IMG/VR virus record: IMGVR_UViG_3300044301_004622
Span: 1-26,934 of that record
Source: a virus
Length of the DNA stretch: 26,934 nucleotides
Strand: one strand, 5' to 3'
Shown: positions 329 to 25,272 of the stretch, piece by piece
How the letters are laid out: the number at the start of each line of letters is the position of its first letter
How positions within the stretch are numbered: the first letter of the stretch is position 1
The notes under the pieces: generated by a model
Told to the model about the DNA's origin: nothing
The model's database searches: none
What the model saw: only the letters and a program-made list of their open reading frames with translations
Position numbers and translations under genes: made by a program

Positions 329-1132
329 ATGATAAGTTTAACTCAATTATTAAACGAAGCTATTAATGGTCCTAAAGCTGTTATATTAGCAGGGGCACCA
401 GGAGCAGGAAAAGGTTATATATTAAGAGGTTTAGATTTAGGTGGATTGAAAATAATGAATGTAGATGATATTTATGTTCCTTTACTAAAAAAAGCTAACG
501 TTAGTTTAGATTTAAAAAATGCTACACCTGAAGAAAGAAGTGAGCAAGCTAAACAAATGGCTGTAGCTAATAAGGAATTTAAAGGTGAAATGGAAAAAAT
601 TATAGCAGGTAGAGAATCTTTTATATTAGATGGTACAGCAGCATCATTTAATAAAACAGCACAATTAAAACAAGAATTAGAAGAAGCAGGATATAATGTA
701 TTTATGCTTTATGTTTATACTGATTTAGAAAGATCATTAAAACAAAATCAAGATAGATTTGAAAAATCTGAGGGTGAAGATAGAAGTTTAGCCCCAGCTA
801 TTGTAATGAGAACTTGGATGGATGTAACTAAAAATTATAAACCTTATAAAGACTTATTTGACCAAAATAATTTTGCATTAGTAGCTAATACTTTAGAAGG
901 AGAAAAATTAGATAGTTTAGAAGATATTGTTAGTAAATATTTAACTCCATTTAAACCCCAAGGAACAAAACCTAAAACTGATAAACAAAAAGCTAGATCA
1001 GAAGAAAGAAAAGCCAAGGAAGAAAAAATAATTAAATCTCTTTTAAACACTGAATTTGTAAATGATATAGTTGGTGATGGTTTATCTAAAGACGAAGCAC
1101 AAATGAAATTAAAAAAATTCTTAACTCGATGA
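329..1132 (+). CDS. P-loop kinase (zeta-toxin / polynucleotide-kinase-like) with capsid-targeting-like N-terminus
   Basis: This 267-residue protein has a Walker A motif GAPGAGKG at residues 22-29 after a hydrophobic strand (AVILA). An NVDD segment lies at 44-47 and a second strand FILDGTA at 98-104, as in small phosphotransferases of the zeta-toxin/AAA_33 type. The substrate cannot be told. The C-terminal 60 residues are Lys/Glu-rich and helical. The first ten residues, MISLTQLLNE, followed by Ala, look like the T4 capsid-targeting sequence that gp21 protease removes after (L/I)xE. The enzyme may therefore be packaged in the head and injected; this is inference. The start is supported by the AT box just upstream. 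The stop overlaps the next start as ATGA (1129-1132), so the two genes are probably translationally coupled. Kinase fold likely; role unknown. Confidence 0.8.
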   Translation: MISLTQLLNEAINGPKAVILAGAPGAGKGYILRGLDLGGLKIMNVDDIYVPLLKKANVSLDLKNATPEERSEQAKQMAVANKEFKGEMEKIIAGRESFILDGTAASFNKTAQLKQELEEAGYNVFMLYVYTDLERSLKQNQDRFEKSEGEDRSLAPAIVMRTWMDVTKNYKPYKDLFDQNNFALVANTLEGEKLDSLEDIVSKYLTPFKPQGTKPKTDKQKARSEERKAKEEKIIKSLLNTEFVNDIVGDGLSKDEAQMKLKKFLTR

Positions 1133-4100
1133 ACGAATTAACTAAAGAATTAGTAAAAGGACTAATGGAAGTAGATGATACTAAAGTAGTTGCTTTGTAT
1201 GGAGGAGGATTTAAACCACCAATAGCAGGACATTTTAATGTAGTTAAACAAGCATTAGAAGAACATCCTGAAATTGATGAATTAAAAATATTTGTAGGAG
1301 CAAAATCAAGAGATGGTATTGACCAAGAAGAAGCATTATTAATATGGGATATATATAAAAATTATTTACCAGGTAAAATAACTATTGAACCTGTATCTGC
1401 TCCAATTAAAAATATTTACAATTATTCTAAAGAAAATTTACAAGAAAAAGTTTATTGGATTTTAGGAAGAAGAGAAGGAGCTGAAGATGATATAAAAGAT
1501 ATAGAAGTAAGACAAACAACATTACTTAAAAACCCAAAAACATACCCTAATTTATCTGTTAAAGTAGTAACTACCAAGGATGAAGGTATGAGGGGAAGAA
1601 ATGCTAGAAAAGCTATTAATAATAGAGAAGAATTTTTTAAATACTTACCAAATATAGATACTGTAGATAAAGAAAAAGTATATGATTTAGTTTCACCTAC
1701 ATTAAATGAAGGTATATCAAAAAAAGAACTAAATTCAATTGAATCATATGCTGATAGTTTATTTAATAAATTAGGTATTGATATAGAATTTACAAAACAT
1801 TTTTTTGATAGGTTAAATGATATTAGAAATAAAAAACCAATATCTGTAGCTGAATTAATAGGTGTGTTTAAAAAACTATATAAAAAGCATGGTAAACCAT
1901 TATCTAAAACTGAAGATGATTTAGAAGCTGTTGTTAAAGATTTTAATAAAAATATTAATATCCCTTTTGTAATTGATGTAGATCAAAATGGAATTGATAT
2001 GACAGCTAAAACAATAATGAGAAAACAAGACTTTCAAACATCTAATCCTATTATACCTTTAGAAGAAGAATTGACACAAGAAACACCAGAATTCTTTTAT
2101 CATGCAACATATAAAGCATTGTTACCAAGTATTAAAGCAACAGGATTAGATACCAGAGAAGCTATATTGGCTTGGGAAGATTCAAAACCCGGTATTGTTT
2201 ATTTAGCTAATGACCCAGGTGTAGCAGAATCATATGCTGAAGCATCAGAAGTAGTTTCAGATGAAATCTATGATAGTGGTATTGTAATGTTAAAAATAGC
2301 ATCTAAAGATTTAGATTTAAGTAAATTACACGATGATAGTAATGTATTAGAAGACGAGTCTGATACATATGAATATCATGGGCAAATACCTTGGGATAAA
2401 CTTTCAATAACTAATTTACAAGAAAATGTAAAAACTGAAGAGGATAATGATAATATAGTACCTGAAGCTGAATTAATTTTACCTAGAGGTAAAAAAGTAG
2501 TATTACAAGCTGAAGACACAGATTATAAAAGAGGTTTAATTGTTGAATTATTAAATAATGGTGGTTATGAAATGGCATATTGGTATGATAAACCCGATAA
2601 ACCATACCCAGTTGAAATTTTAGTTGATGGGAAAAGTATTAAAAAAGATGGTAAAATAGTTGAAATGAAATTTCATCCACAAGATTATTATGATAAGCAA
2701 GATGAATTAAATGAAAATACTACATATGCTAATTATATAGATTATAAACAACAAATTAAAGATTTAACTAAACATATGTTAAAGATGGGTTTAAATATTG
2801 AACCTTTACCTAAAATAATTTTTAAACATGAAGATAAATCAAATGCAAAAGATTTTTTTGGAAAAACAGCTTATTATAATCCAAATACTCAAGAAGTAGT
2901 ATTATATACAGAAGGAAGACATCCAAAAGATGTAGTAAGATCATTTGCTCATGAAATGATTCACCATATACAAAATTTAGAAGGTAGATTAGGAAATATA
3001 AACACAACTAATACAAATGAAGACCCAGATTTAGATGCAATAGAAAGAGAAGCATATCAAGAAGGAAATATGATTTTTAGAAATTGGACTGACTCTATTG
3101 ATGGTGAAATTACTACTGATATAGAAGAAGGAGGTTCATTAATACCTATAGATATTAAAAAATCTAAAAAAGATCCATTTGGGATAAATGCTTATGCTTT
3201 AGAATTAGCTAAAGGTTTAGAAGAAGCAATAGTAAATGAAGGTAAATATGATTCATTAGTAACTAAATTAGCTAGTTGGACTTTAAATTCATGGAAAATG
3301 GATTTTTTAGAAGGATATAACGAGGGTAAATTTGAAGTAGAAGTAGGACCTGGTAAAGATTTTGATTATCCTCATTTAGATTTTGAATATAAAGCTGAAG
3401 CTACATTTGGGGGAATTTACCGTGATAAGGGAAGCTTTGCTCGTCCCTTAGTACCTGAAGTTGTAATAAAATATTCATTAGATATTGAAGAATTACCTAG
3501 AATGTGGTCAAGAATTGCTATGGATTTAAGAAATACTATTCGTCATGAAATAGAACATTTAATGCAAAGTGGTCCTAATGTTAAAAAAGGTAAAGAAAAA
3601 GAAAAAGATTATACTGAAAGAGAAGAAATAAAATCAGGTAAAAAACCTTGGTGGAAAATATGGAGAAAAAAATTAAAAAATGTTGATTATTACAAATTAG
3701 CAAAAGAAGTAGATGCTAATTTACAAGGTTTATATTTACAAGCTAAAAAATCAAGAACACCACTTAAAGATGTTATTGATAATTATGTTAAATATGATTT
3801 AAATTTATCTATAGAAGATCAAGAAGAAGTTAAAAGAATTTGGGCTGAAAGAGCTCCTAAATTAAATATTCCTTTAGAAGAAGGCAGAAAAAAGAAAAAA
3901 GACCCTAAAAAAGGTACTGGTAAAAAACCTGAAGGATCAAGTAGAAGATTATACACAGATGAAGACCCTTCAGATACAGTAAAAGTAAAATTTTCAACAA
4001 GACAAGATATAGTAGATACTTTAAATAAAAAATCTTTTAAAAATAAATCTCATGCTCGTCAATCTCAAGTTATAAATTTAATACATCAAAGAGTAAGAGC

Positions 4101-4776
4101 AGCTTTGGGAAGAACTAAAGATCCAAAAAAGAAAAAACGTTTACAAACTGCATTTGATTACATTAAAAAGCGTAAAGAAGCCTCTAAAGCTAAAACACAA
4201 CGTTTAAAGAAAAAGAAAACAAATGAAACTATAGATTTACCTAACCATGATGGTAAAGCAGCTCCATATGGATCAGGATATAAACCTTTAAAAGAAAATC
4301 AAAAATATACAATTTATTCAGATATGGATGGTGTAATAGCAGATTTTGATAAAAGATTTAAAGAATTTTCAAATGGTATTGCTCCCCAAAATTATGTAGA
4401 TAAATTTGGATTAGAAGCTTTTTGGGATTTAATAGATAAACAAGTAGGTGTTAGATTTTGGACAGGAATAGATTGGATGCCAGATGGAAAAGAATATTGG
4501 AATTATATAAAAAAATATAACCCAAAATTATTATCATCACCTTCACGTGAAAATGAGTCAAGATTAGGAAAAAGAATTTGGGCAAAACGAAGAATGCCTG
4601 GAACCAAAGTAATTTTAGCATATTCTTATAATAAAAAAAATTATGCTGATGGAAATTCTATTTTGATAGATGATATGGAAAAAAATATAGATCAATGGAG
4701 AGCAGCTGGTGGAATAGGAATTCTACATACATCAGCGGCTTCTACTATTGCTCAATTAAAAGAATTAGGTTTATGA
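1129..4776 (+). CDS. 1215-residue multidomain protein: nucleotidyltransferase, ART-like, two metalloprotease-like domains, HAD phosphatase; possible polyprotein
   Basis: Domains in order: a nucleotidyltransferase at about 18-190 (GGGFKPPIAGHFN, with GH at 34-35, and RGRNARKAI at 155-163 matching the ISSTxxR region); a conserved phage domain of unknown role at about 195-305 (KHFFDRLND, TIMRKQDF); an ADP-ribosyltransferase/2'-phosphotransferase-like domain at about 320-430 (FFYHAT, IVYLANDPGVAESYA, YHGQIPWDKLSI); a small beta-rich part to 528; a first zinc-protease-like domain with HEMIH at 608-612 and a possible third ligand E641; a second with HEIEH at 806-810 and possibly E860; a Lys/Arg-rich segment at 919-1050; and a HAD 5'-nucleotidase-like domain at 1060-1215 (DMDG 1065-1068, SSPS 1136-1139, IDD 1180-1182). 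Candidate prohead-protease sites (L/I)xE lie between domains at E14, E194, E313, E432, E529, E699, E918 and E1056. ATGA overlaps join it to both neighbours. Individual domain calls are from motifs only; the zinc sites and HAD are clearest. Confidence 0.75.
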   Translation: MNELTKELVKGLMEVDDTKVVALYGGGFKPPIAGHFNVVKQALEEHPEIDELKIFVGAKSRDGIDQEEALLIWDIYKNYLPGKITIEPVSAPIKNIYNYSKENLQEKVYWILGRREGAEDDIKDIEVRQTTLLKNPKTYPNLSVKVVTTKDEGMRGRNARKAINNREEFFKYLPNIDTVDKEKVYDLVSPTLNEGISKKELNSIESYADSLFNKLGIDIEFTKHFFDRLNDIRNKKPISVAELIGVFKKLYKKHGKPLSKTEDDLEAVVKDFNKNINIPFVIDVDQNGIDMTAKTIMRKQDFQTSNPIIPLEEELTQETPEFFYHATYKALLPSIKATGLDTREAILAWEDSKPGIVYLANDPGVAESYAEASEVVSDEIYDSGIVMLKIASKDLDLSKLHDDSNVLEDESDTYEYHGQIPWDKLSITNLQENVKTEEDNDNIVPEAELILPRGKKVVLQAEDTDYKRGLIVELLNNGGYEMAYWYDKPDKPYPVEILVDGKSIKKDGKIVEMKFHPQDYYDKQDELNENTTYANYIDYKQQIKDLTKHMLKMGLNIEPLPKIIFKHEDKSNAKDFFGKTAYYNPNTQEVVLYTEGRHPKDVVRSFAHEMIHHIQNLEGRLGNINTTNTNEDPDLDAIEREAYQEGNMIFRNWTDSIDGEITTDIEEGGSLIPIDIKKSKKDPFGINAYALELAKGLEEAIVNEGKYDSLVTKLASWTLNSWKMDFLEGYNEGKFEVEVGPGKDFDYPHLDFEYKAEATFGGIYRDKGSFARPLVPEVVIKYSLDIEELPRMWSRIAMDLRNTIRHEIEHLMQSGPNVKKGKEKEKDYTEREEIKSGKKPWWKIWRKKLKNVDYYKLAKEVDANLQGLYLQAKKSRTPLKDVIDNYVKYDLNLSIEDQEEVKRIWAERAPKLNIPLEEGRKKKKDPKKGTGKKPEGSSRRLYTDEDPSDTVKVKFSTRQDIVDTLNKKSFKNKSHARQSQVINLIHQRVRAALGRTKDPKKKKRLQTAFDYIKKRKEASKAKTQRLKKKKTNETIDLPNHDGKAAPYGSGYKPLKENQKYTIYSDMDGVIADFDKRFKEFSNGIAPQNYVDKFGLEAFWDLIDKQVGVRFWTGIDWMPDGKEYWNYIKKYNPKLLSSPSRENESRLGKRIWAKRRMPGTKVILAYSYNKKNYADGNSILIDDMEKNIDQWRAAGGIGILHTSAASTIAQLKELGL

Positions 4777-11150: not shown

Positions 11151-12605
11151 ATGACTAAAGTAGTAATTGTAGGAGCAGGAGTAGCAGGAATTAATGCTGC
11201 TACTAAATTAGTAGATAATAACTTTGAAGGAAAAATAACAATTATTGATATGGGTAAAGATCCATATAATAGATTACCTGAAGAAGTAATGACAGGTATG
11301 TTAGGTGCTGGTGGTTGGTCTGATGGTAAATTAACATATCATACTTCAATAGGAGGACATTTATCAAAATATTGTGGAGAAGAAAAAGCAATGGAATTAA
11401 TGGATCAAGTTATTAATAATTTTAAAAGATTTCATCCTAAACCAGAAGAAGTACAATGTTCTAATCCAGTAGCAGAACCTGATTTTATTAAACCTTATTT
11501 TGGTTTAAGATTATTCCCTGTATGGCATGTTGGGACTGATTATTTACATGAAATAGGTAAAAATTGGTATAATTATTTGGTAGATAATGGTGTAGAATTT
11601 ATTTGGGAAACTAAAGTTGGGGATATTGATTTTGATAATCAAGAAGTATATTGTGGTTTAGGTTCTAAACATGAACTTAGTTTTAAATATGATAAACTTA
11701 TATTTGGTGTAGGTAAATCAGGAATTGACTTCGGAAAACAATTAGCTGAAAATTATAAACTACCAACAGAAGCAAAACCTGTACAAATAGGTGTTCGATT
11801 TGAAGCACCACAAAAACACTTCCAAAAATTAATTGATGTTAGTTATGATTTTAAATTATATAGAAAATTTGATGATGAAGGTGTATCATTAAGATCATTT
11901 TGTACTAATAATAATGCTGCTTATGTTGCATTAGAAGAAACATATGGGGATTATAGTTACAATGGTCATGCTAAAAAAGATCCTAAATATAAAAATGATA
12001 TGACTAATTTTGGTATTTTAATGGAAATTAGAGGTATTAAAAATCCATTTACTTGGTCTAGAGAATTAGTTGATAAAGTAAATAAAGTATCAATTGTACA
12101 AGGAGAAGGATATAGCGGAGGTAGAGCTATTGGTAGATTTGCAGCAAAATATAAAGCAGGATTATATTATAGTCCTATAGGAAAAGATAAATCAAAAACA
12201 TCAGAAGGTGATTGGGTAAAAGCTCATTATATTGGTGAAGATAGTTTGGAAGATGTTAGAGATGCTTTTAAAGGTTATTTTAAATATATAGAAGATTTCA
12301 TTAATGATATGAAAAAAGTATTTCCTACATTAAAAGATGATTGGGGAATCTATATTCCTGAGGTAAAATATTTATCTCCTGAACCTTTAGTAAATTATAA
12401 AGACTTATCACTTACAGAATTTTCAAATGTACATTTTGTAGGTGATGCCTTAAGTGCAAGAGGTATTACAGTATCGGGTGCACAAGGAACTTACGTAGCT
12501 GAAAGTTTAATCAAAAACCAAAAAGAATGCCAAGAAAAAAAATCGTTACCGAACCACTTATTAAAGAACGAATCCTTAAAAAGAGAGAAAAAGATGGAAG
12601 TTTAA
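11151..12605 (+). CDS. FAD-dependent dehydrogenase (COG2509-like)
   Basis: This is a 484-residue flavoprotein. The N-terminus VVIVGAGVAGINAA has the dinucleotide-binding GxGxxG (8-13), and D33 ends the second strand (ITIID). LGAGGWSDGKLTYHTSIGG (51-69) matches the GGAGxxSDGKL region I associate with uncharacterised FAD-dependent dehydrogenases of the COG2509/YhiN-like group. FGVGKSGID is the returning strand, and FVGDALSARGITVSGAQGTY near residue 450 is the C-terminal FAD-binding element. The substrate is unknown. The gene follows a terminator and has an A-rich leader without a Shine-Dalgarno sequence. No targeting-like peptide is present, so it probably acts in the infected cell as an auxiliary metabolic enzyme. 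Its last 26 codons overlap the next gene in another frame. Confidence 0.8.
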   Translation: MTKVVIVGAGVAGINAATKLVDNNFEGKITIIDMGKDPYNRLPEEVMTGMLGAGGWSDGKLTYHTSIGGHLSKYCGEEKAMELMDQVINNFKRFHPKPEEVQCSNPVAEPDFIKPYFGLRLFPVWHVGTDYLHEIGKNWYNYLVDNGVEFIWETKVGDIDFDNQEVYCGLGSKHELSFKYDKLIFGVGKSGIDFGKQLAENYKLPTEAKPVQIGVRFEAPQKHFQKLIDVSYDFKLYRKFDDEGVSLRSFCTNNNAAYVALEETYGDYSYNGHAKKDPKYKNDMTNFGILMEIRGIKNPFTWSRELVDKVNKVSIVQGEGYSGGRAIGRFAAKYKAGLYYSPIGKDKSKTSEGDWVKAHYIGEDSLEDVRDAFKGYFKYIEDFINDMKKVFPTLKDDWGIYIPEVKYLSPEPLVNYKDLSLTEFSNVHFVGDALSARGITVSGAQGTYVAESLIKNQKECQEKKSLPNHLLKNESLKREKKMEV

Positions 12606-12856: not shown

Positions 12857-13387
12857 ATGAAAATAGGTTTATGTGGAACAATGAGTGTAGGTAAAACTAC
12901 ATTAGTTAATGAATTAAAAAAATTAGATGAATTTAAAGATTATAAATTTGCTACAGAACGTAGTAAATATTTAAGTTCATTAGGAATCCCTTTAAATACA
13001 GATTCAACATTAAAAGGTCAATTAGTATTTGCAGCTGAAAGAGCAGCTGAATTAATGCAAGAAAAAATGATAACAGATAGGACTATTATTGATGTTATGG
13101 CTTTTTGTGAATTATCTAAATCAATGAGTAAAGCTGAAAAACAACATATAAATGGAGTTTTATGGCATCTTATAAAAGAATATGATGTTATATTTCATAT
13201 AACTGATTTATCTGTACCGATGGAAGATAATGGAGTAAGAGAAACAAATGAAGATTATAGATTATCAATTCATCAAAAAATATCTTCTATATTAGGAATG
13301 CATAGGTTAATGCCTGGTAAAGTAGTAGAAATTAAAGGTACTACGGAGGAACGGATAAATAAAATTAAAGAAACAATATTTTCATAA
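12857..13387 (+). CDS. P-loop ATPase/kinase of the AAA_28 (NadR-kinase-like) type
   Basis: This is a 176-residue protein. Walker A GTMSVGKT lies at 7-14; FATERSKYLSSLGIP at 31-45 fits the E-R segment; ITDRTIIDVMAF (72-83) is the DR/D strand; and DNGVRETNEDYRLSIHQKI (124-142) matches the DNGxR...R segment that I associate with AAA_28 proteins, which include the nicotinamide-riboside kinase domain of NadR. The reaction is probably phosphorylation of a nucleoside-like substrate, but specificity cannot be read. The length is normal for a stand-alone kinase. It follows a 48-base AT-rich gap and ends next to the late-promoter-like box at 13388. Whether it works with the nucleotidyltransferase domain at 1129 is open. 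Confidence 0.7.
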   Translation: MKIGLCGTMSVGKTTLVNELKKLDEFKDYKFATERSKYLSSLGIPLNTDSTLKGQLVFAAERAAELMQEKMITDRTIIDVMAFCELSKSMSKAEKQHINGVLWHLIKEYDVIFHITDLSVPMEDNGVRETNEDYRLSIHQKISSILGMHRLMPGKVVEIKGTTEERINKIKETIFS

Positions 13388-18014: not shown

Positions 18015-18869
18015 ATGTATATAAAACATTCTAAATTTAAAAATACTGGTATCCTTTTCGAATTACTAGTAAGAAAGATAACGGCAGATACATTAGAAGG
18101 AAATGACTCTCCAGCTGTAAATATCCTAAAAAAATATTTTGTAAATACTGAATTAGGAAAAGAATACAAATTATATGAATCTGTATTCAAATCATCATCT
18201 ATTACAGAAGGTAAAGCTAATATAATACTAAACACAGTATTAGAAACATCAAGAAAATTAAATAGAAGTGCTTTAAGAAGGGAAAAATATAATATAGTTA
18301 GAGAATTAAAAGAAAATTATAATTTAGAAGAATTATTTAAAACAAAAATAAATAATTATAAACCTTTAGCATCTTTATATTGTTTGTTTGAAATTTATAA
18401 TTCAAAAGACATCACAAACCCAAACCAAATTGTTGATAATAAAGTAACATTATTAGAACATTTAACCAAAAAAGAAGTTTCAAAAAATGATGTTAAAGAA
18501 GATATTTTAGAAGAATTTAAATCTTATGATAAAGATTTAAGAATTCTTACTTATAGAGTATTATTAGAAAAATTTAATGATAAATATTCTAGTTTAAATT
18601 CATCCCAAAAGTTAGTACTTAAAGAATTTATTAATAATGTAGACAATACTACGAGATTAAAAGAATTTTATAATCAAAAAATAAATGAAGTTAAAAAATC
18701 ATTAATTAAAGAGGTTAAAAAAGTAAAAGATAAAGCTACTAAAATTAAATTAGAAGAAATATCTAAATTTGTTGTCGAAATTGATAAAAGAAAAGGAATT
18801 AATAGTGATAATTTAGTTGATTTATTACAATATTATTCTTTACTTGAAGAATTAAAACAAGTAAAATAA
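18015..18869 (+). CDS. Conserved helical protein of the prohead region
   Basis: This is a 284-residue, almost all-helical, Lys/Glu/Leu-rich protein. The N-terminus YIKHSKFKNTGILFELLVRK, then ITADTLEGNDSPAVNILKKYF, looks highly conserved. I associate it with proteins encoded between portal and protease genes in T4-like marine phages, but I know no assigned function. Later segments (RKLNRSALRREKYNIVRELK, EDILEEFKSYDKDLRILTYR) are helical with no catalytic motif. Its place corresponds to the T4 gp67/gp68 interval, so a prohead core or assembly role is plausible. Its stop overlaps the next ATG (TAATG, 18867-18871). There is no (L/I)xE targeting-type start. Confidence 0.7.
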   Translation: MYIKHSKFKNTGILFELLVRKITADTLEGNDSPAVNILKKYFVNTELGKEYKLYESVFKSSSITEGKANIILNTVLETSRKLNRSALRREKYNIVRELKENYNLEELFKTKINNYKPLASLYCLFEIYNSKDITNPNQIVDNKVTLLEHLTKKEVSKNDVKEDILEEFKSYDKDLRILTYRVLLEKFNDKYSSLNSSQKLVLKEFINNVDNTTRLKEFYNQKINEVKKSLIKEVKKVKDKATKIKLEEISKFVVEIDKRKGINSDNLVDLLQYYSLLEELKQVK

Positions 18870-19513
18870 TGGGACTTAACGAAAGAATAAATAATATACT
18901 CGAACAAAACAAAGTAAAATTTGTTGACCCTAAATCTGAATTAGAAGCAGCGGCTGAAAAAAAAGATGAAGATTGGGCAGAAGGTATTGTTTATGTAGAT
19001 GATCCTAGAATACCACAAGAATTTTTAAGAAAAATAGAAAAAAAGTATGGTCCAATTCCAAAAGGAAGTTACTTTTCAGGTAACTTTTCAATGTATTGGG
19101 AAAAGTTAGAACCAGATTATGGTGGAGAAGTAAATACAGGGGGTAGATCAGTTTCAAATCAATATAGATTACCTAATATAAATAATGTATATAGACAATT
19201 TAAAAAACTTAATGATCAACTTGACTTTTTAAAGGATAATAAGGATATAATGAAAGATGAAGGAATACAAAAAGTATTTCAACAAATAAGAGATTCATTT
19301 AATTCTTATCGTACCTATATTAGAAAAAATTATCCTGAAAATTATGAAACTGTAAAAGAAATATCAACAACAGGAGGAGGAGCAGGAGCAGCTGGGTTTA
19401 CACCTGGTGAAGGAATGGGGTATGCAACACCTTACGCATTTACAGGAGGTAAAAAAGCAAAAGAACCACTAGCATTAAAAAAACTAGGATATAAAATTGC
19501 AAAAAATGAGTAA
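18869..19513 (+). CDS. Prohead-region protein sharing a Gly-rich motif with the major capsid protein
   Basis: This is a 214-residue protein. The N-terminus MGLNERINNILE|Q may be a targeting peptide (12 residues, ending ILE). The middle is helical (INNVYRQFKKLNDQLDFLKD). At residues 161-175, VKEISTTGGGAGAAG is followed by FTPGEGMGYATPYAF, closely matching the capsid protein around its probable cleavage site (VTEVSNTGGGAGAGTFTAGT, residues 57-76 there). A short basic tail (GGKKAKE...KLGYKIAKNE) follows. The shared motif suggests the same protease site or the same capsid contact, so I infer a capsid-associated or internal head protein. It overlaps the upstream gene by one base and the downstream gene by eight. 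Confidence 0.65.
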   Translation: MGLNERINNILEQNKVKFVDPKSELEAAAEKKDEDWAEGIVYVDDPRIPQEFLRKIEKKYGPIPKGSYFSGNFSMYWEKLEPDYGGEVNTGGRSVSNQYRLPNINNVYRQFKKLNDQLDFLKDNKDIMKDEGIQKVFQQIRDSFNSYRTYIRKNYPENYETVKEISTTGGGAGAAGFTPGEGMGYATPYAFTGGKKAKEPLALKKLGYKIAKNE

Positions 19514-20512: not shown

Positions 20513-21115
20513 ATGAAACAAGTACTTATTGAAACAATTTCTTTCTCACCAAAAGTAAAATTATCAGAAAGTAAAAAATCTGAAAATGGGAATCCTATAG
20601 TTGAGGGAATTTTAGCTACTGTTGAAGTTAAAAATGGTAATGGTAGATATTATAAAAGAGATTTGTGGCAAAGAGAAATGGATAAGTATGATAAAATAAT
20701 TAAAGAAAATAGAGCAGTAGGAGAATTAGATCACCCAGAATCTTCTGTTGTAAATTTAAAAAATGTTTCACATAATATCAAAGATACTTGGTGGGATGGA
20801 GATAATATTATGGGTAAAGTAGAAATACTACCTACTCCATCAGGTAATATTTTAAAGTCACTTATTGATAATGGTATAACAGTAGGTGTGTCTTCAAGAG
20901 GAATGGGATCATTAAGACCTATGGGTGAAGTACAAGAAGTACAAGATGATTTTGAATTACTATGTTGGGATTTTGTTTCAACTCCTTCAAATCCAGGTTC
21001 TTATATGCATTTAGTAAACGAAGGACTTGAATTTAAATCGGCAAATCCATATACTAAAGTAAATTCTATTATATACGAAATCCTTTGTTCAAAAGGAAAT
21101 TGTCCAATTTCGTAA
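20513..21115 (+). CDS. Prohead core protease (gp21-like serine protease)
   Basis: This is a 200-residue protein, near the T4 gp21 length (212). It cuts scaffold, capsid and internal proteins inside the prohead after (L/I)xE. Family landmarks are EGILATVEVKNGNGRYYKRD (31-50), AVGELDHPESS with catalytic His 74, ITVGVSSRGMGSL (122-134) with the Ser at 127 or 128, and CWDFVSTPSNPGSYMHLV (151-168) with an acidic D153. The herpesvirus-type prohead protease fold is known for this family. MKQVLIE|T at the N-terminus and LVNE|G at 168-171 are possible self-cleavage sites. It lies directly before the scaffold gene, the T4 order. Its specificity underlies the polyprotein hypothesis for other genes here. 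Confidence 0.93.
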   Translation: MKQVLIETISFSPKVKLSESKKSENGNPIVEGILATVEVKNGNGRYYKRDLWQREMDKYDKIIKENRAVGELDHPESSVVNLKNVSHNIKDTWWDGDNIMGKVEILPTPSGNILKSLIDNGITVGVSSRGMGSLRPMGEVQEVQDDFELLCWDFVSTPSNPGSYMHLVNEGLEFKSANPYTKVNSIIYEILCSKGNCPIS

Positions 21116-21236: not shown

Positions 21237-22571
21237 ATGAACAGAGATTTTTTAAAAGAGGCAATCGCCGACGCTAAAGCTGTTAAAGAATCAGCAATAG
21301 CGAATGCAAAAGCTGCTCTCGAAGAATCTTTCACACCTCACTTAAAATCTATGCTATCAACTAAACTCCAGGAAATGGAAAAAGAAGATACTAAAGAGAA
21401 TATGAGAGGATCTTTCGAAGAAGATGACGTTAAAGAAATGATGCGTGGTTCTTATGAAGAAGATGATGTAAAAGAAGAAATGAGGGATAAAAAAGATAAA
21501 ATGGAAGAAAAAATGTCGAATCCAGTAATGCGTAAAGGTTTAAAGGGAGATGATCCTGCAGAACTTGAAACTGAAAAAATGCGTGAAACGGAGGAAAATT
21601 TAGATGAAGTTTTATCGGAGCTTGAAGAATCAGAAGTTAATGAAGATGCTAGAACAGACGCCGAAGAAGAAGGCTATAAAGATGGCATGGAAGACGAAAA
21701 GGAAGATCTTGAGGGTGAAGCCGAAGAGATTGACCTTGATGACATGACTGATGATGATTTGAAAAAATTTATCGAAGATGTTATTGAAGATATGGTCACT
21801 GCTGGAGAAATTGAAGCAGGTGAAAATTTCGAAGATGACGTCGAAGTTGATGTTACTGTAGATGACGAAGTTGACGTAGAAGTTGAAGACGAAGTTGAAG
21901 TAACAGAAAGTAAAGAAGTTAATGAATCAGAAGAAGTAACAGAAGTAGTAGGAACTGCTGCGGCAGGTATTGCTGCATTATTTGCTGCTGCTGGTGGCTT
22001 AACAGCTATTCAATTAGCAATGGAAAAACCAGAAACTGCTAAAAAATACCCAAAACTTAAAGCTATGCTTGATCTTATGGGTGAAATTGGTAGTGCTGCA
22101 TCTTCTGCTAAATTGAGAGAAGCTAAGGAAGCTGCATCTGAAGAGGAATTAGATAAACTTGAAGATAAAATAGATCAAGTATTTGAAACTAAAGTAACGG
22201 AAAACGATTCTCCAGAACTTGAAGAAGCATATGCTACTATTGAAACTTTAAGATCAGATCTAAATGAGATTAACTTACTAAACGCAAAATTGTTGTATAC
22301 CAACAAAATCTTTAAATCAAAGAATTTGAATGAAAATGATAAAGTTAAGGTATTAACTAACTTTGATAAAGCTGCGACAGTGAAAGAAGCAAAACTTATT
22401 TATGATACTTTAAAAGATTTAAAACCAAAAAGGGTTAAAAGATCAATTAAAGAATCTGTAGGAAGAGCTTCAAAACCATCTGGAATAGCTCCAAAGAAAA
22501 ATAATCCAAAACCTATCGTTGAATCAAACCAAATGGTTGACAGATTTAAAAAATTAGCAGGAATAATTTAA
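21237..22571 (+). CDS. Prohead scaffold/core protein (gp22-like)
   Basis: This is a 444-residue acidic protein between protease and capsid genes, as in T4. It fills the prohead and is degraded to small peptides by the protease. MNRDFLKE|A may be the first cut site. Residues 57-83 carry a near-duplicate (MRGSFEEDDVKE, MRGSYEEDDVKE). Residues 135-151 carry NEDARTDAEEEGYKDGM, shared with the protein at 5981. Residues 201-222 are VD/VE-alternating. Residues 236-300 are Ala-rich and hydrophobic (GTAAAGIAALFAAAGG), and the basic C-terminus ends QMVDRFKKLAGII, the typical scaffold tail. It is longer than T4 gp22 (269 residues) because of the acidic N-terminal half. Codon use has more C- and G-ending codons than most neighbours, fitting high expression. 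Confidence 0.88.
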   Translation: MNRDFLKEAIADAKAVKESAIANAKAALEESFTPHLKSMLSTKLQEMEKEDTKENMRGSFEEDDVKEMMRGSYEEDDVKEEMRDKKDKMEEKMSNPVMRKGLKGDDPAELETEKMRETEENLDEVLSELEESEVNEDARTDAEEEGYKDGMEDEKEDLEGEAEEIDLDDMTDDDLKKFIEDVIEDMVTAGEIEAGENFEDDVEVDVTVDDEVDVEVEDEVEVTESKEVNESEEVTEVVGTAAAGIAALFAAAGGLTAIQLAMEKPETAKKYPKLKAMLDLMGEIGSAASSAKLREAKEAASEEELDKLEDKIDQVFETKVTENDSPELEEAYATIETLRSDLNEINLLNAKLLYTNKIFKSKNLNENDKVKVLTNFDKAATVKEAKLIYDTLKDLKPKRVKRSIKESVGRASKPSGIAPKKNNPKPIVESNQMVDRFKKLAGII

Positions 22572-22600: not shown

Positions 22601-24220
22601 ATGAGCCAATTAAACTCTTTATTAGAAAGTGCTAATCCGTATAAAAGTCTACAAGACGATGCGGCTAAATTAGCAAACAAGTGGGCTAAAACAGGTCTAC
22701 TTGAAGGTTTAGGTGACAATGACAAAAGTAATATGTCAATGTTACTAGAAAACCAAGCAAAACAATTGGTTACTGAAGTTTCTAATACTGGTGGAGGCGC
22801 TGGTGCTGGTACATTTACAGCTGGTACAGGTGCTCAATGGGCAGGTGTTGCTTTACCTTTGGTAAGAAAAGTATTTGGACAAATCGCAGCGAAAGAATTC
22901 GTTTCGGTTCAACCAATGAACTTACCTTCAGGTCTTGTATTCTACCTTGACTTCCAGTATGGTACTACAAAATCTCCATTTACAAGTGGAAATTCTTTGT
23001 ATGGTGATACTTCAGCTAACTTTGGTAACACAAACACAGGTGGTCTTTATGGAGCAGGAAGATTTTCATACTCTACACAGACTACAGGAGCAGCAGCTCA
23101 AAATTTTGACATCACAACAGCTTCATGGTCTGATTTGAACTTTGATGGTACTTATTCAGCATCAGCAGTAGCAAATGAATTTAAACTTGCAACTTTAAAC
23201 ACAAGTTCAACTTCATTCCCTAATGCTGATTTAGAAGCTGCGAGATCATTTGAGATCTTTGATGGTAATACTAATATTACTGACTACCCACAATTTACTA
23301 GAGTATCAGGTAGTTCAATTATATTTGTAATTACAGGATCTAGAACAGCAGACCCACTAGATTCATATGATATTTCTGGATCATTAGCTCCAACTGATGG
23401 AGATAGAGGTGACTTCGAAGATGGTAATACTAATCTAGATGCGAATAATAATCCAATTACTATTCCACAGATTAATGTTCAAATGAGAAGTGAAGCTATT
23501 GTAGCTAAAACACGTAAATTGAAAGCTGTTTGGACTCCTGAGTTTGCTCAAGATCTTAACGCTTACCATTCACTAGATGCAGAAGCTGAATTAACTTCTA
23601 TTATGAGTGAGTATATTTCATTAGAAATAGACTTAGAAATTCTAGATATGTTAATTGAATCAGCAGCTGCTGGAACTGAAGTATGGTCAGCTAAAAACAA
23701 CCAATCAACTTCAACTACTACAGGTGATGGTACTTGGTCGGATCTTGGATTCTATAACTCACAAGGACAATGGTTCCAAACTTTAGGAACTAAAATCCAA
23801 AAGTTGAGTAATATTATTCATCAGAAAACACTTAGAGGTGGTGCTAATTTCTTAGTATGTTCTCCAACTGTAGGTACTATTTTGGAAAGTATTCCAGGAT
23901 TTGCTGCTAATTCAGATGGTGATGCTGCTAAAATGAATTATGCATTTGGTGTACAAAAAGTTGGTCAATTAAATGGTAGATACCAAGTTTATAAGAACCC
24001 TTACATGACTGAAAATACTATATTATTAGGATTTAGAGGTTCACAATTCTTGGAAGCAGGTGCTGTATTTGCTCCTTATGTACCACTTATCATGACTCCA
24101 ATGGTGTACGATCCAAACACTTTCGTACCAAGAAAAGGTCTATTAACTCGTTATGCGAAGAAAATGCTACGACCTGAATTCTATGGATTAATTGAATGTG
24201 CTGGTTTAGATACTGTATAA
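22601..24220 (+). CDS. Major capsid protein (gp23-like)
   Basis: This is a 539-residue HK97-fold capsid protein, close to T4 gp23 (521). Landmarks are LPLVRKVFGQIAAKEFVSVQ then PMNLPSGLVFYLDFQYG (84-121), a long variable insertion with Ser/Thr/Gly-rich sequence (about 125-290), EAIVAKTRKLKAVWTPEFAQ then DLNAYHSLDAEAELTSI, and the C-terminal GRYQVYKNPYMTENTILLGF then FVPRKGLLTRYAKKMLRPEF. The N-terminal delta region is probably removed by the protease: LLE9|S, LLE50|N and VTE59|V are candidates, the last lying at the T4 position (about residue 65) and just before SNTGGGAGAGTF. The gene follows the scaffold by 29 bases, has no Shine-Dalgarno sequence, and ends before a strong terminator. Confidence 0.96.
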   Translation: MSQLNSLLESANPYKSLQDDAAKLANKWAKTGLLEGLGDNDKSNMSMLLENQAKQLVTEVSNTGGGAGAGTFTAGTGAQWAGVALPLVRKVFGQIAAKEFVSVQPMNLPSGLVFYLDFQYGTTKSPFTSGNSLYGDTSANFGNTNTGGLYGAGRFSYSTQTTGAAAQNFDITTASWSDLNFDGTYSASAVANEFKLATLNTSSTSFPNADLEAARSFEIFDGNTNITDYPQFTRVSGSSIIFVITGSRTADPLDSYDISGSLAPTDGDRGDFEDGNTNLDANNNPITIPQINVQMRSEAIVAKTRKLKAVWTPEFAQDLNAYHSLDAEAELTSIMSEYISLEIDLEILDMLIESAAAGTEVWSAKNNQSTSTTTGDGTWSDLGFYNSQGQWFQTLGTKIQKLSNIIHQKTLRGGANFLVCSPTVGTILESIPGFAANSDGDAAKMNYAFGVQKVGQLNGRYQVYKNPYMTENTILLGFRGSQFLEAGAVFAPYVPLIMTPMVYDPNTFVPRKGLLTRYAKKMLRPEFYGLIECAGLDTV

Positions 24221-24354: not shown

Positions 24355-25272
24355 ATGAAAGAGACACCATCTCAGTTGCCTTTTCCAAGTTTTGTTATGA
24401 ATTTTCCTTTCTCGTTTTCAACAGAAAATCCCAATAACATATGGATGCAAGAAATGTCTTCTGAAGAATTAAAAGTAAACAGAGGCAAAGCGTATAAACA
24501 ATTTATGGACCTATATAATTTCGTATCAGGTGCGGGATTTGTATGTAATTTACCAAGTCATGGTAATAAATTTCAAGATTTAGTATATGTTGCTAATATG
24601 GGAATTTATCTTCCTCATATAAAAGATAGTAATAATATTATTATGTCTAATTTTACATCACCCCCAAGACAAGGTGAAGAATTAGTAGGTAAACCATTTT
24701 TTGACTTAATGAATTATAAAACTCATGATTGTCCTTATAAATTTGAAGGAGAAGCAGATTTAAAATATCTACATGGTAATAATTATATAGGAGGATATGG
24801 CATTCGTTCATCAAAAGAAGCTTTTGAATGGATGGAAGAAAAATTTGATATGAATATTATTAAATTAGAAATGGTAGATGAATATCTTTATCATTTAGAT
24901 TGTAATATTTTTCCTTTATCAAAATCTAAAACATTAGTATGTCCTGAATTTCATCTTCCTGAAGAAATTAAAGAAATAGAAAAATATACTGAAATAGTAG
25001 AAGTAAGTGCTGATAATGTTTATAATGGAATTTGCAATTCAGCACGTGTAGGAAATATGATTTTATGTGCTTCAAATATATCTGAATTATCCATAAATGA
25101 TGAAGCATATGACGCTGAAAAACATAAAATACACGCATTAGAAAAAATATGTTACAATGAAGGTCTAGAACCTATTATATTTAATATATCAGAGTTTATG
25201 AAATCAGGTGCAATGTTATCTTGTATGATTATGCATTTGAATTATGTTGATTATGAAAGAACTTTAATATAA
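24355..25272 (+). CDS. Dimethylarginine dimethylaminohydrolase / amidinotransferase-like enzyme
   Basis: This is a 305-residue member of the guanidine-modifying (pentein) superfamily. Matches to the family are FQDLVYVANMGIYLP (73-87; compare DMVFTANAG), NFTSPPRQGEE (99-109), YKFEGEADLKYLHGNN (128-143) with the acidic loop, GGYGIRSS (146-153), YLYHLDCNIFPL (178-189) with catalytic His 180, and FMKSGAMLSCMIMHLN (281-296) with catalytic Cys 290. Family enzymes hydrolyse or transfer the amidine group of arginine derivatives. The exact substrate cannot be read. All key residues appear present, so it is probably active. It sits downstream of the capsid terminator and overlaps the next gene by one base (TAATG). 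An unusual phage metabolic gene; the alternatives are arginine deiminase-like or amidinotransferase proper. Confidence 0.8.
   Translation: MKETPSQLPFPSFVMNFPFSFSTENPNNIWMQEMSSEELKVNRGKAYKQFMDLYNFVSGAGFVCNLPSHGNKFQDLVYVANMGIYLPHIKDSNNIIMSNFTSPPRQGEELVGKPFFDLMNYKTHDCPYKFEGEADLKYLHGNNYIGGYGIRSSKEAFEWMEEKFDMNIIKLEMVDEYLYHLDCNIFPLSKSKTLVCPEFHLPEEIKEIEKYTEIVEVSADNVYNGICNSARVGNMILCASNISELSINDEAYDAEKHKIHALEKICYNEGLEPIIFNISEFMKSGAMLSCMIMHLNYVDYERTLI

Follow-up and report, generated by a model that had tools for sequence, protein, structure and literature searches.

What becomes of a phage protein that strings several unlike domains along one polypeptide? The window, that is, the whole stretch of DNA analyzed here, is an entire 26,934-base IMG/VR record from a marine T4-like phage, and close to its start it encodes a 1215-residue multi-module protein, P0001. 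An earlier note on this DNA had placed the protein in one open frame (1129-4776), which we confirm, and had read it as a chain of effectors that the prohead protease cuts after (L/I)xE sites in the linkers. We propose, with a probability of roughly 0.8, that the phage packages P0001 as a cargo polyprotein, cuts it with the prohead protease, and ejects the separate modules with the DNA. The proposal draws on the mosaicism of the modules among relatives, the sites between them and the conservation of these sites, the depletion of the same motif inside the modules, the protease gene and, from published data, a link between N-terminal sites and virion proteins in a related phage. From these observations we infer the packaging, cutting, ejection and activities of P0001.

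Genome setting of P0001

The following genes bear on the proposal; an arrow marks the expected cut.

329-1132, plus strand: Zeta-toxin-like kinase (Pfam Zeta_toxin, E 4e-15); N-terminal site MISLTQLLNE↓A
1129-4776, plus strand: P0001, 1215-residue multi-module protein, whole frame
14529: terminase
16121: Gp20 portal
20513-21115, plus strand: prohead protease, Peptidase_S77/T4 gp21 family, the proposed cutter (Pfam PF03420, E 2.3e-27; PHROG head maturation protease, E 5e-57)
21237-22571, plus strand: scaffold-like core protein with 26 [LIVM]xE motifs (assigned by position and composition)
22601-24220, plus strand: major capsid protein Gp23 (PF07068, E 4.8e-77); its N-terminal region contains LLE and LVTE sites

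The stop of the kinase gene overlaps the start of P0001, and the two genes open a run of mostly unknown-function proteins upstream of the terminase. In one relative (L034, 4954-8292) a kinase-like N-terminal region and the polyprotein are fused, and the fusion begins MINLVNLKE↓Q. Among isolated phages, the nearest that we found was immuto, a Flavobacterium phage of 160 kb; its P0001 relative sits between the tail-fibre genes and the terminase, a placement like that of P0001.

The proposed cutter belongs to the family of T4 gp21, which cuts after L/I-X-E and thereby removes targeting propeptides of 10-19 residues from internal proteins; in T4 IPIII, processing is blocked when the P1 residue is Asp (PMC9026906). 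Peptidase_S77 is present in the window and in 11 of the 12 large contigs that bear a polyprotein, the twelfth being a 57-kb fragment; this supports the protease named in the earlier note, the cutting itself being deduced. A control with module D, defined below, gave a weak contrast, with sites in 5 of 9 contigs that contain S77 and in 2 of 15 that do not. The scaffold-like protein drew no family match in profile searches; its 26 motifs are consistent, by analogy, with the cutting of T4 gp22 into fragments.

The structural gene block also holds genes for a FAD-dependent dehydrogenase (11151-12605), a thymidylate-kinase-like protein (12857-13387) and a dimethylarginine-dimethylaminohydrolase-like protein (24355-25272). 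Small proteins near the portal (window 18869-19513; L079 33358-33579) contain KEISTTGGGAGAAGF or LEEMSTTGAVGGY, which resemble the VTEVSNTGGGAGAGTF of the Gp23 capsid protein (22601-24220) around its likely cleavage site.

Modules and their mosaicism

Where does one module end and the next begin? Relatives of P0001 are encoded at 78 IMG/VR loci, and because modules shuffle among these relatives, boundaries could be set by mosaicism and not by motif. The edges of BLAST segments on P0001, at about 194, 313, 432, 527, 701, 918 and 1056, coincide with the sites of the earlier note. Profile searches show modules A to H dropped, duplicated, gained, reordered or carried on separate genes; for example, the order is A-G-D-E-F in L012 (with H separate), A-G-B-E-F-H in L040, A-G-F-E-H in L029 and A-D-F-E-H in L078. 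The alignments used were those of colinear relatives and of a B-C-D set; MAFFT alignments of single module fragments were dropped, the fragments being misplaced.

1129-1170, plus strand: N-terminal propeptide, capsid-targeting-like, residues 1-14, MNELTKELVKGLME↓V, ending LME14; relatives are alike at the same place
1171-1710, plus strand: module A, residues 15-194, predicted NMNAT/NadD-fold nucleotidyltransferase (Foldseek, model), ending LNE194↓G
1711-2067, plus strand: module B, residues 195-313, conserved phage domain (phrog_23027/14518; phrog_23027 E 2e-27), ending LEE313↓E
2068-2424, plus strand: module C, residues 314-432, ART-superfamily-like (sub-threshold matches), ending LQE432↓N
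2425-2715, plus strand: module D, residues 433-529, all-beta domain (strands in the model; found in 70 loci), ending LNE529↓N
2716-3240, plus strand: module E, residues 530-704, HExxH zincin-like (HEMIH at 608), then LEE699↓A and the conserved VNE704↓G
3241-3882, plus strand: module F, residues 705-918, the other HExxH domain (HEIEH at 806), ending LEE918↓G
3883-4296, plus strand: module G, residues 919-1056, helical and very basic (pI 10.4), plus spacer, ending LKE1056↓N
4237-4296, plus strand: spacer cassette, ...DGKAAPYGSGYKPLKE↓, a recurrent linker ending in a site
4297-4776, plus strand: module H, residues 1057-1215, HAD 5'(3')-deoxyribonucleotidase-type (phrog_2643 E 3.4e-24; PDB 3bwv E 2.5e-4)

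The activities suggested here (NMNAT, nucleotidase, zincins, basic helical protein) are read from sequence and fold, and several are uncertain. The model supports module A as a HIGH-type nucleotidyltransferase of the NadD/NMNAT fold: Foldseek matches it to NadD structures (E 3.1e-5), pLDDT is about 85-93, and the GH of the HxGH motif is kept, while Pfam gave no sequence match. Module H is supported as an NT5C-type HAD nucleotidase by the PHROG and PDB matches, the Pfam NT5C score of 19.7 bits lying below the cut-off of 24.8. Both assignments bear out the nucleotidyltransferase and HAD phosphatase of the earlier note, whose two HExxH domains are likewise found, with motifs at 608 and 806, and whose "conserved phage domain" is module B. 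A match of the module B model to RelE (Foldseek E 0.17, probability 0.82) is at most suggestive of a RelE/BECR-like fold, and the B-C-D model as a whole gave no Foldseek match below E 0.1. The Sinorhizobium phiM12 relative of module B is listed without virion annotation. For the proposed ART-like domain, module C, the Pfam and PDB matches to ART-superfamily enzymes are sub-threshold; module C may be ART-like. Module G is about 80% identical in relatives over 100 residues. The least certain word of the earlier reading is "effectors".

Structure prediction had been suggested in the same note as a way to place domain edges. Model 1 (residues 16-1215, mean pLDDT 64) is confident for A and H and moderate for E, F and G; model 2 (residues 191-530, mean pLDDT 55) is good for B and poor for C, the low values in C and D being partly due to thin alignments. 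In the two models all seven linker sites lie within or border stretches of pLDDT below 50.

Two further kinds of arrangement were seen. In L011, L043 and L048 modules E and F are separated by a zinc-ribbon-like insert, GDKIxCDNCGWxWKIxDGGDDLYxCHKC, which closes with an LxE of its own and which we read as one more cartridge. In very large proteins (up to about 2100 residues; L170-L196 and other phage contigs) the sequence xxE↓M(S/A) stands before module B; here the Glu is fixed and the hydrophobic P3 residue is absent, perhaps reflecting the rule of another protease.

Sites between and within modules

Does the motif fall between modules by chance? P0001 contains 16 (L/I)xE motifs, a count that our recount reproduces, and all seven junctions between the eight modules contain one. 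The linker sites E194, E313, E432, E529, E699, E918 and E1056 had been correctly identified, as had those inside domains, E45, E51, E106, E473, E512, E788 and E1212, which are followed by H, L, K, L, M, L and L; these 14 stand, but the list omitted IEE667↓G and the most important site, LME14↓V. The caution that 16 motifs are about what composition gives applies to the total and not to the placement: none of 200,000 random placements of 16 sites filled the seven junctions, nor did any of 5000 whole-protein shuffles. At the E/F junction LEE699↓A is present as described, but the residues that relatives conserve are VNE704↓GKYD, so this boundary is not marked by LEE699↓A alone.

The earlier note held that linker sites lost in relatives whose domains persist would refute its reading; the comparison of relatives speaks for that reading instead. 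Among 108 distinct linkers, drawn from 45 non-redundant multi-module relatives and representing 19 kinds of module pair, [LIVM]xE occurs in 106 and [LI]xE in 84. In 1000 composition-preserving shuffles of the linkers the means were 48.6 (maximum 65) and 37.0 (maximum 55), respectively, scores that overstate the case because related sequences are not independent. The control motifs [LI]xD, [LI]xK, [LI]xN, [LI]xQ, [LI]E, [LI]xxE and Ex[LI] are all near expectation; the enrichment is specific to Glu at P1 and to Leu, Ile, Val or Met at P3. The two exceptions are in L015 and L029 (E-H), the latter genuine. The L015 case was set aside as an artefact of overlapping domain envelopes, for the protein there reads LLTE↓GKYD.

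Inside the modules the pattern is reversed. With 185 occurrences against about 305 expected (0.61, z -8), [LI]xE is depleted in module interiors, whereas [LI]xD and [LI]xK are enriched there (1.26 and 1.14 of expectation); the early genes of immuto, at 1.19 of expectation, show no depletion. The residue that follows the motif also differs, being mainly Gly, Asn or Glu in linkers and Lys, Leu, Phe or Ile inside modules, in keeping with the small or polar residue noted earlier after the linker sites. Two features count against our explanation: the many Val or Met residues at P3 exceed the L/I rule of T4, and the in-module sites (E45, E51, E106, E788 and others) would have to be protected by folding.

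The sites travel with the modules. Module E starts with LNE↓NATY or the like after A, B, C, D, F, G or other partners, and module F starts with xE↓G(K/R)YD after E, B, D or G or at the head of a free-standing gene. For example, a free-standing F (L049) begins MQLTLSDILFE↓GKYDSLV, a free-standing G (L064) begins MSNLNE↓ADPKKGTGKKP, and a free-standing C (L086) begins MKYIKIYEQFLNE↓ALTQEVP where P0001 has LEE↓ELTQETP. For C, F and G the mature start thus does not change between a free-standing gene and a place within a chain, which is hard to explain without cutting. A spacer of the form GK(A/S)(A/S)P(Y/F)GS(G/A)Y, such as GKAAPYGSGY, precedes modules E, F, G or H and is also found in unrelated proteins (window 4237-4296, L002, L005, L012, L029, L036, L062, L098, L103, L117 and others); in 32 of 32 distinct copies of this PYGSGY type, [LIVM]xE occurs within the next 22 residues.

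The propeptide-like N-terminus and virion proteins

How might the chain enter the head? The N-terminus of P0001, MNELTKELVKGLME↓V, is 14 residues long, within the 10-19-residue range of T4 propeptides, and ends in the cleavage motif. By analogy LME14↓V looks like the end of a T4 capsid-targeting propeptide, and head targeting is its putative role. Relatives start with MNQLTKHLVDGILNE↓D, MDSLTKSLIKDLLPE↓S and similar sequences, with GILNE↓D, DLLPE↓S and SFLPE↓E at the same place. However, about 20 relatives (L002, L004-L007, L019-L027, L029, L035, L040, L043 and others) begin at module A and have no N-terminal targeting-like peptide, so that their entry into the head is not explained by our proposal, which counts against it. 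Most of these overlap the end of an upstream kinase gene, and in those examined module A begins inside it. A mis-called start was considered and rejected: the frame upstream belongs to the last part of the kinase gene and contains no in-frame propeptide. A frameshift fusion to the kinase, which has a targeting-like peptide of its own, is possible.

In immuto, [LIVM]xE occurs at residues 7-22 in 20 of the 27 ORFs of the internal/head cluster and in 43 of the 184 others; at residues 30-45, taken as a control, the internal cluster shows no excess of the motif. The polyprotein relative gp088 has no clear targeting peptide, whereas the nucleotidase gp087 has one. In the part of the literature available for immuto, no published virion proteome was found.

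A published virion proteome does exist for the T4-like cyanophage S-CREM2 (PMC10665884). An N-terminal site is found in 10 of its 13 non-tail accessory virion proteins and in 29 of 134 undetected proteins (p 1e-4, to be taken as a guide only, the set of 13 omitting the tail-gene block by position and having been chosen after the list was seen); with the tail block included, 10 of 26 accessory virion proteins have the site. Virion proteins with the site include a cytidylyltransferase (MKNFSSFLTE↓A), a kinase (VKRFDAFLTE↓E) and a SAM hydrolase (MKDFDSFLEE↓F). This proteome and the propeptide-like LME14↓V of P0001 support packaging; for injection early in infection the support from S-CREM2 is indirect.

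Proposed mechanism and alternatives

We propose that residues 1-14, which are capsid-targeting-like, would take the full chain into the prohead core. There the gp21-family protease would recognize [L/I/V/M]-x-Glu and cut behind the Glu, which would take off the targeting peptide and split the chain at every linker into about eight proteins of 11-26 kDa: an NMNAT-fold enzyme, a RelE-like, an ART-like and a beta domain, two zincin-like proteins, a basic helical protein and a nucleotidase. The separated proteins would then be ejected along with the DNA. As each module would carry its own site, its swap, loss or move to a separate gene would leave the system intact. It also seems reasonably probable that T4-like phages of marine bacteria use a cartridge system more generally, in which any protein with an [LIVM]xE↓ start can join one packaged chain, the head-maturation protease cuts this chain into separate injected proteins, and the phage changes its cargo by module exchange, much as in the polyproteins of eukaryotic viruses.

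Might the chain instead be packaged and injected uncut, as a classical polyvalent protein, with linker sites that are relics of fused targeting peptides and with the N-terminal one alone being cut? Multi-domain injected polyvalent proteins are known, N4 virion RNAP and TraC1 travel uncut (PMC5512222), and the fusion of genes with N-terminal targeting peptides would put LxE at the junctions. We nevertheless regard this explanation as unlikely: nearly every linker retains its site (106 of 108) though the targeting helix that should precede it is lost, the Glu is fixed while P3 varies among Leu, Ile, Val and Met, which looks like selection on the site, and module interiors are depleted of the motif.

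Still less probable is that the chain is processed by its own zincin-like modules E and F, either ahead of packaging or once inside the host. P0001 does contain two HExxH motifs, and processing by zincin-like metallopeptidases is a published proposal for polyvalent proteins (PMC5512222). The motif, however, fits the gp21 rule, also heads single-module genes that lack a zincin, and persists in relatives without F (L008, L019, L022, L076), and self-cleavage is less likely for these last two reasons. The explanation to which we give the least weight, as very improbable, is that the protein is unpackaged, a multi-enzyme chain that is made late in infection and acts in the infected cell, with sites that reflect chance or linker composition. 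NAD and nucleotide enzymes could indeed act late in infection, but the composition-preserving shuffles and control motifs, the targeting-like N-terminal peptide of P0001, and the detection in S-CREM2 virions of a cytidylyltransferase that is distantly related and has an N-terminus of this type all argue against it.

Relation to known systems

What, then, would be new in a cargo polyprotein cut by the maturation protease? Polyvalent proteins, capsid-targeting (CTS)/gp21 processing, and the cutting of scaffold and propeptides at several places are already known, and our best reading is that P0001 combines polyvalent injected proteins with gp21/CTS processing. In the open-access literature searched, we found no earlier description of a cargo polyprotein in which every module comes with one maturation-protease site.

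Polyvalent proteins (Iyer et al. 2017, PMC5512222) are phage proteins of 2-15 disparate domains, thought to be injected, with zincin, ART and BECR/RelE-like domains and strong mosaicism; the eight modules of P0001 are, in the same way, several unlike domains in one polypeptide. For polyvalent proteins, however, self-cleavage by zincins has been proposed, and some have C-terminal fused assemblin-like peptidases, whereas for P0001 the evidence points to a gp21-family protease encoded by a gene of its own and to a linker motif that is repeated and portable. The internal proteins of T4, including Alt, match what is proposed for P0001 in the L/I-X-E cut, a short N-terminal targeting peptide, packaging and injection, and one of them is an ADP-ribosyltransferase, but that cargo consists of single genes cut at their ends, and the core proteins gp22 and gp67, which are cut into many pieces, are discarded scaffold (PMC9026906). 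Similarly, phiKZ and SPN3US eject head proteins that a gp21-like protease cuts several times at an xXE motif, but the known multiple cuts lie in removed propeptides and not between functional domains, and the SPN3US motif is A-X-E (PMC10052503). The Dar proteins of phage P1 are large, capsid-packaged antirestriction proteins, of which DarA is believed to be proteolytically processed; unlike P0001, no linker-motif polyprotein is known among them, and the targeting signal of DarB is different (PMC9024508). The cytidylyltransferase proteins of cyanophages and pelagiphages (Kyanoviridae: HTVC008M gp130, Melnitz gp18, S-CREM2 gp154) resemble P0001 in that a short xE propeptide is followed by an NMNAT-like N-terminal module. 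S-CREM2 gp154 is found in virions but is short, the similarity of these proteins to module A is remote, and their other modules differ.

The polyprotein strategy is usually tied to RNA viruses. If our reading is correct, a true polyprotein, cut by the capsid maturation protease, is the form in which tailed phages deliver multi-enzyme cargo, and a simple rule, an N-terminal xE propeptide and xE sites in linkers, predicts which uncharacterized phage proteins enter the head and are injected, and at which positions they are cut. Such a sequence rule can be checked against existing virion proteomes.

Finally, we note two large proteins of S-CREM2, gp12 and gp14 (L202 7704-12846), a Cas9-like protein of 869 residues and a kinase protein of 755 residues, both detected in virions. 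An FMAE or FLTE site lies close to the start of each, several more xE sites occur further in, and they may also be polyproteins.
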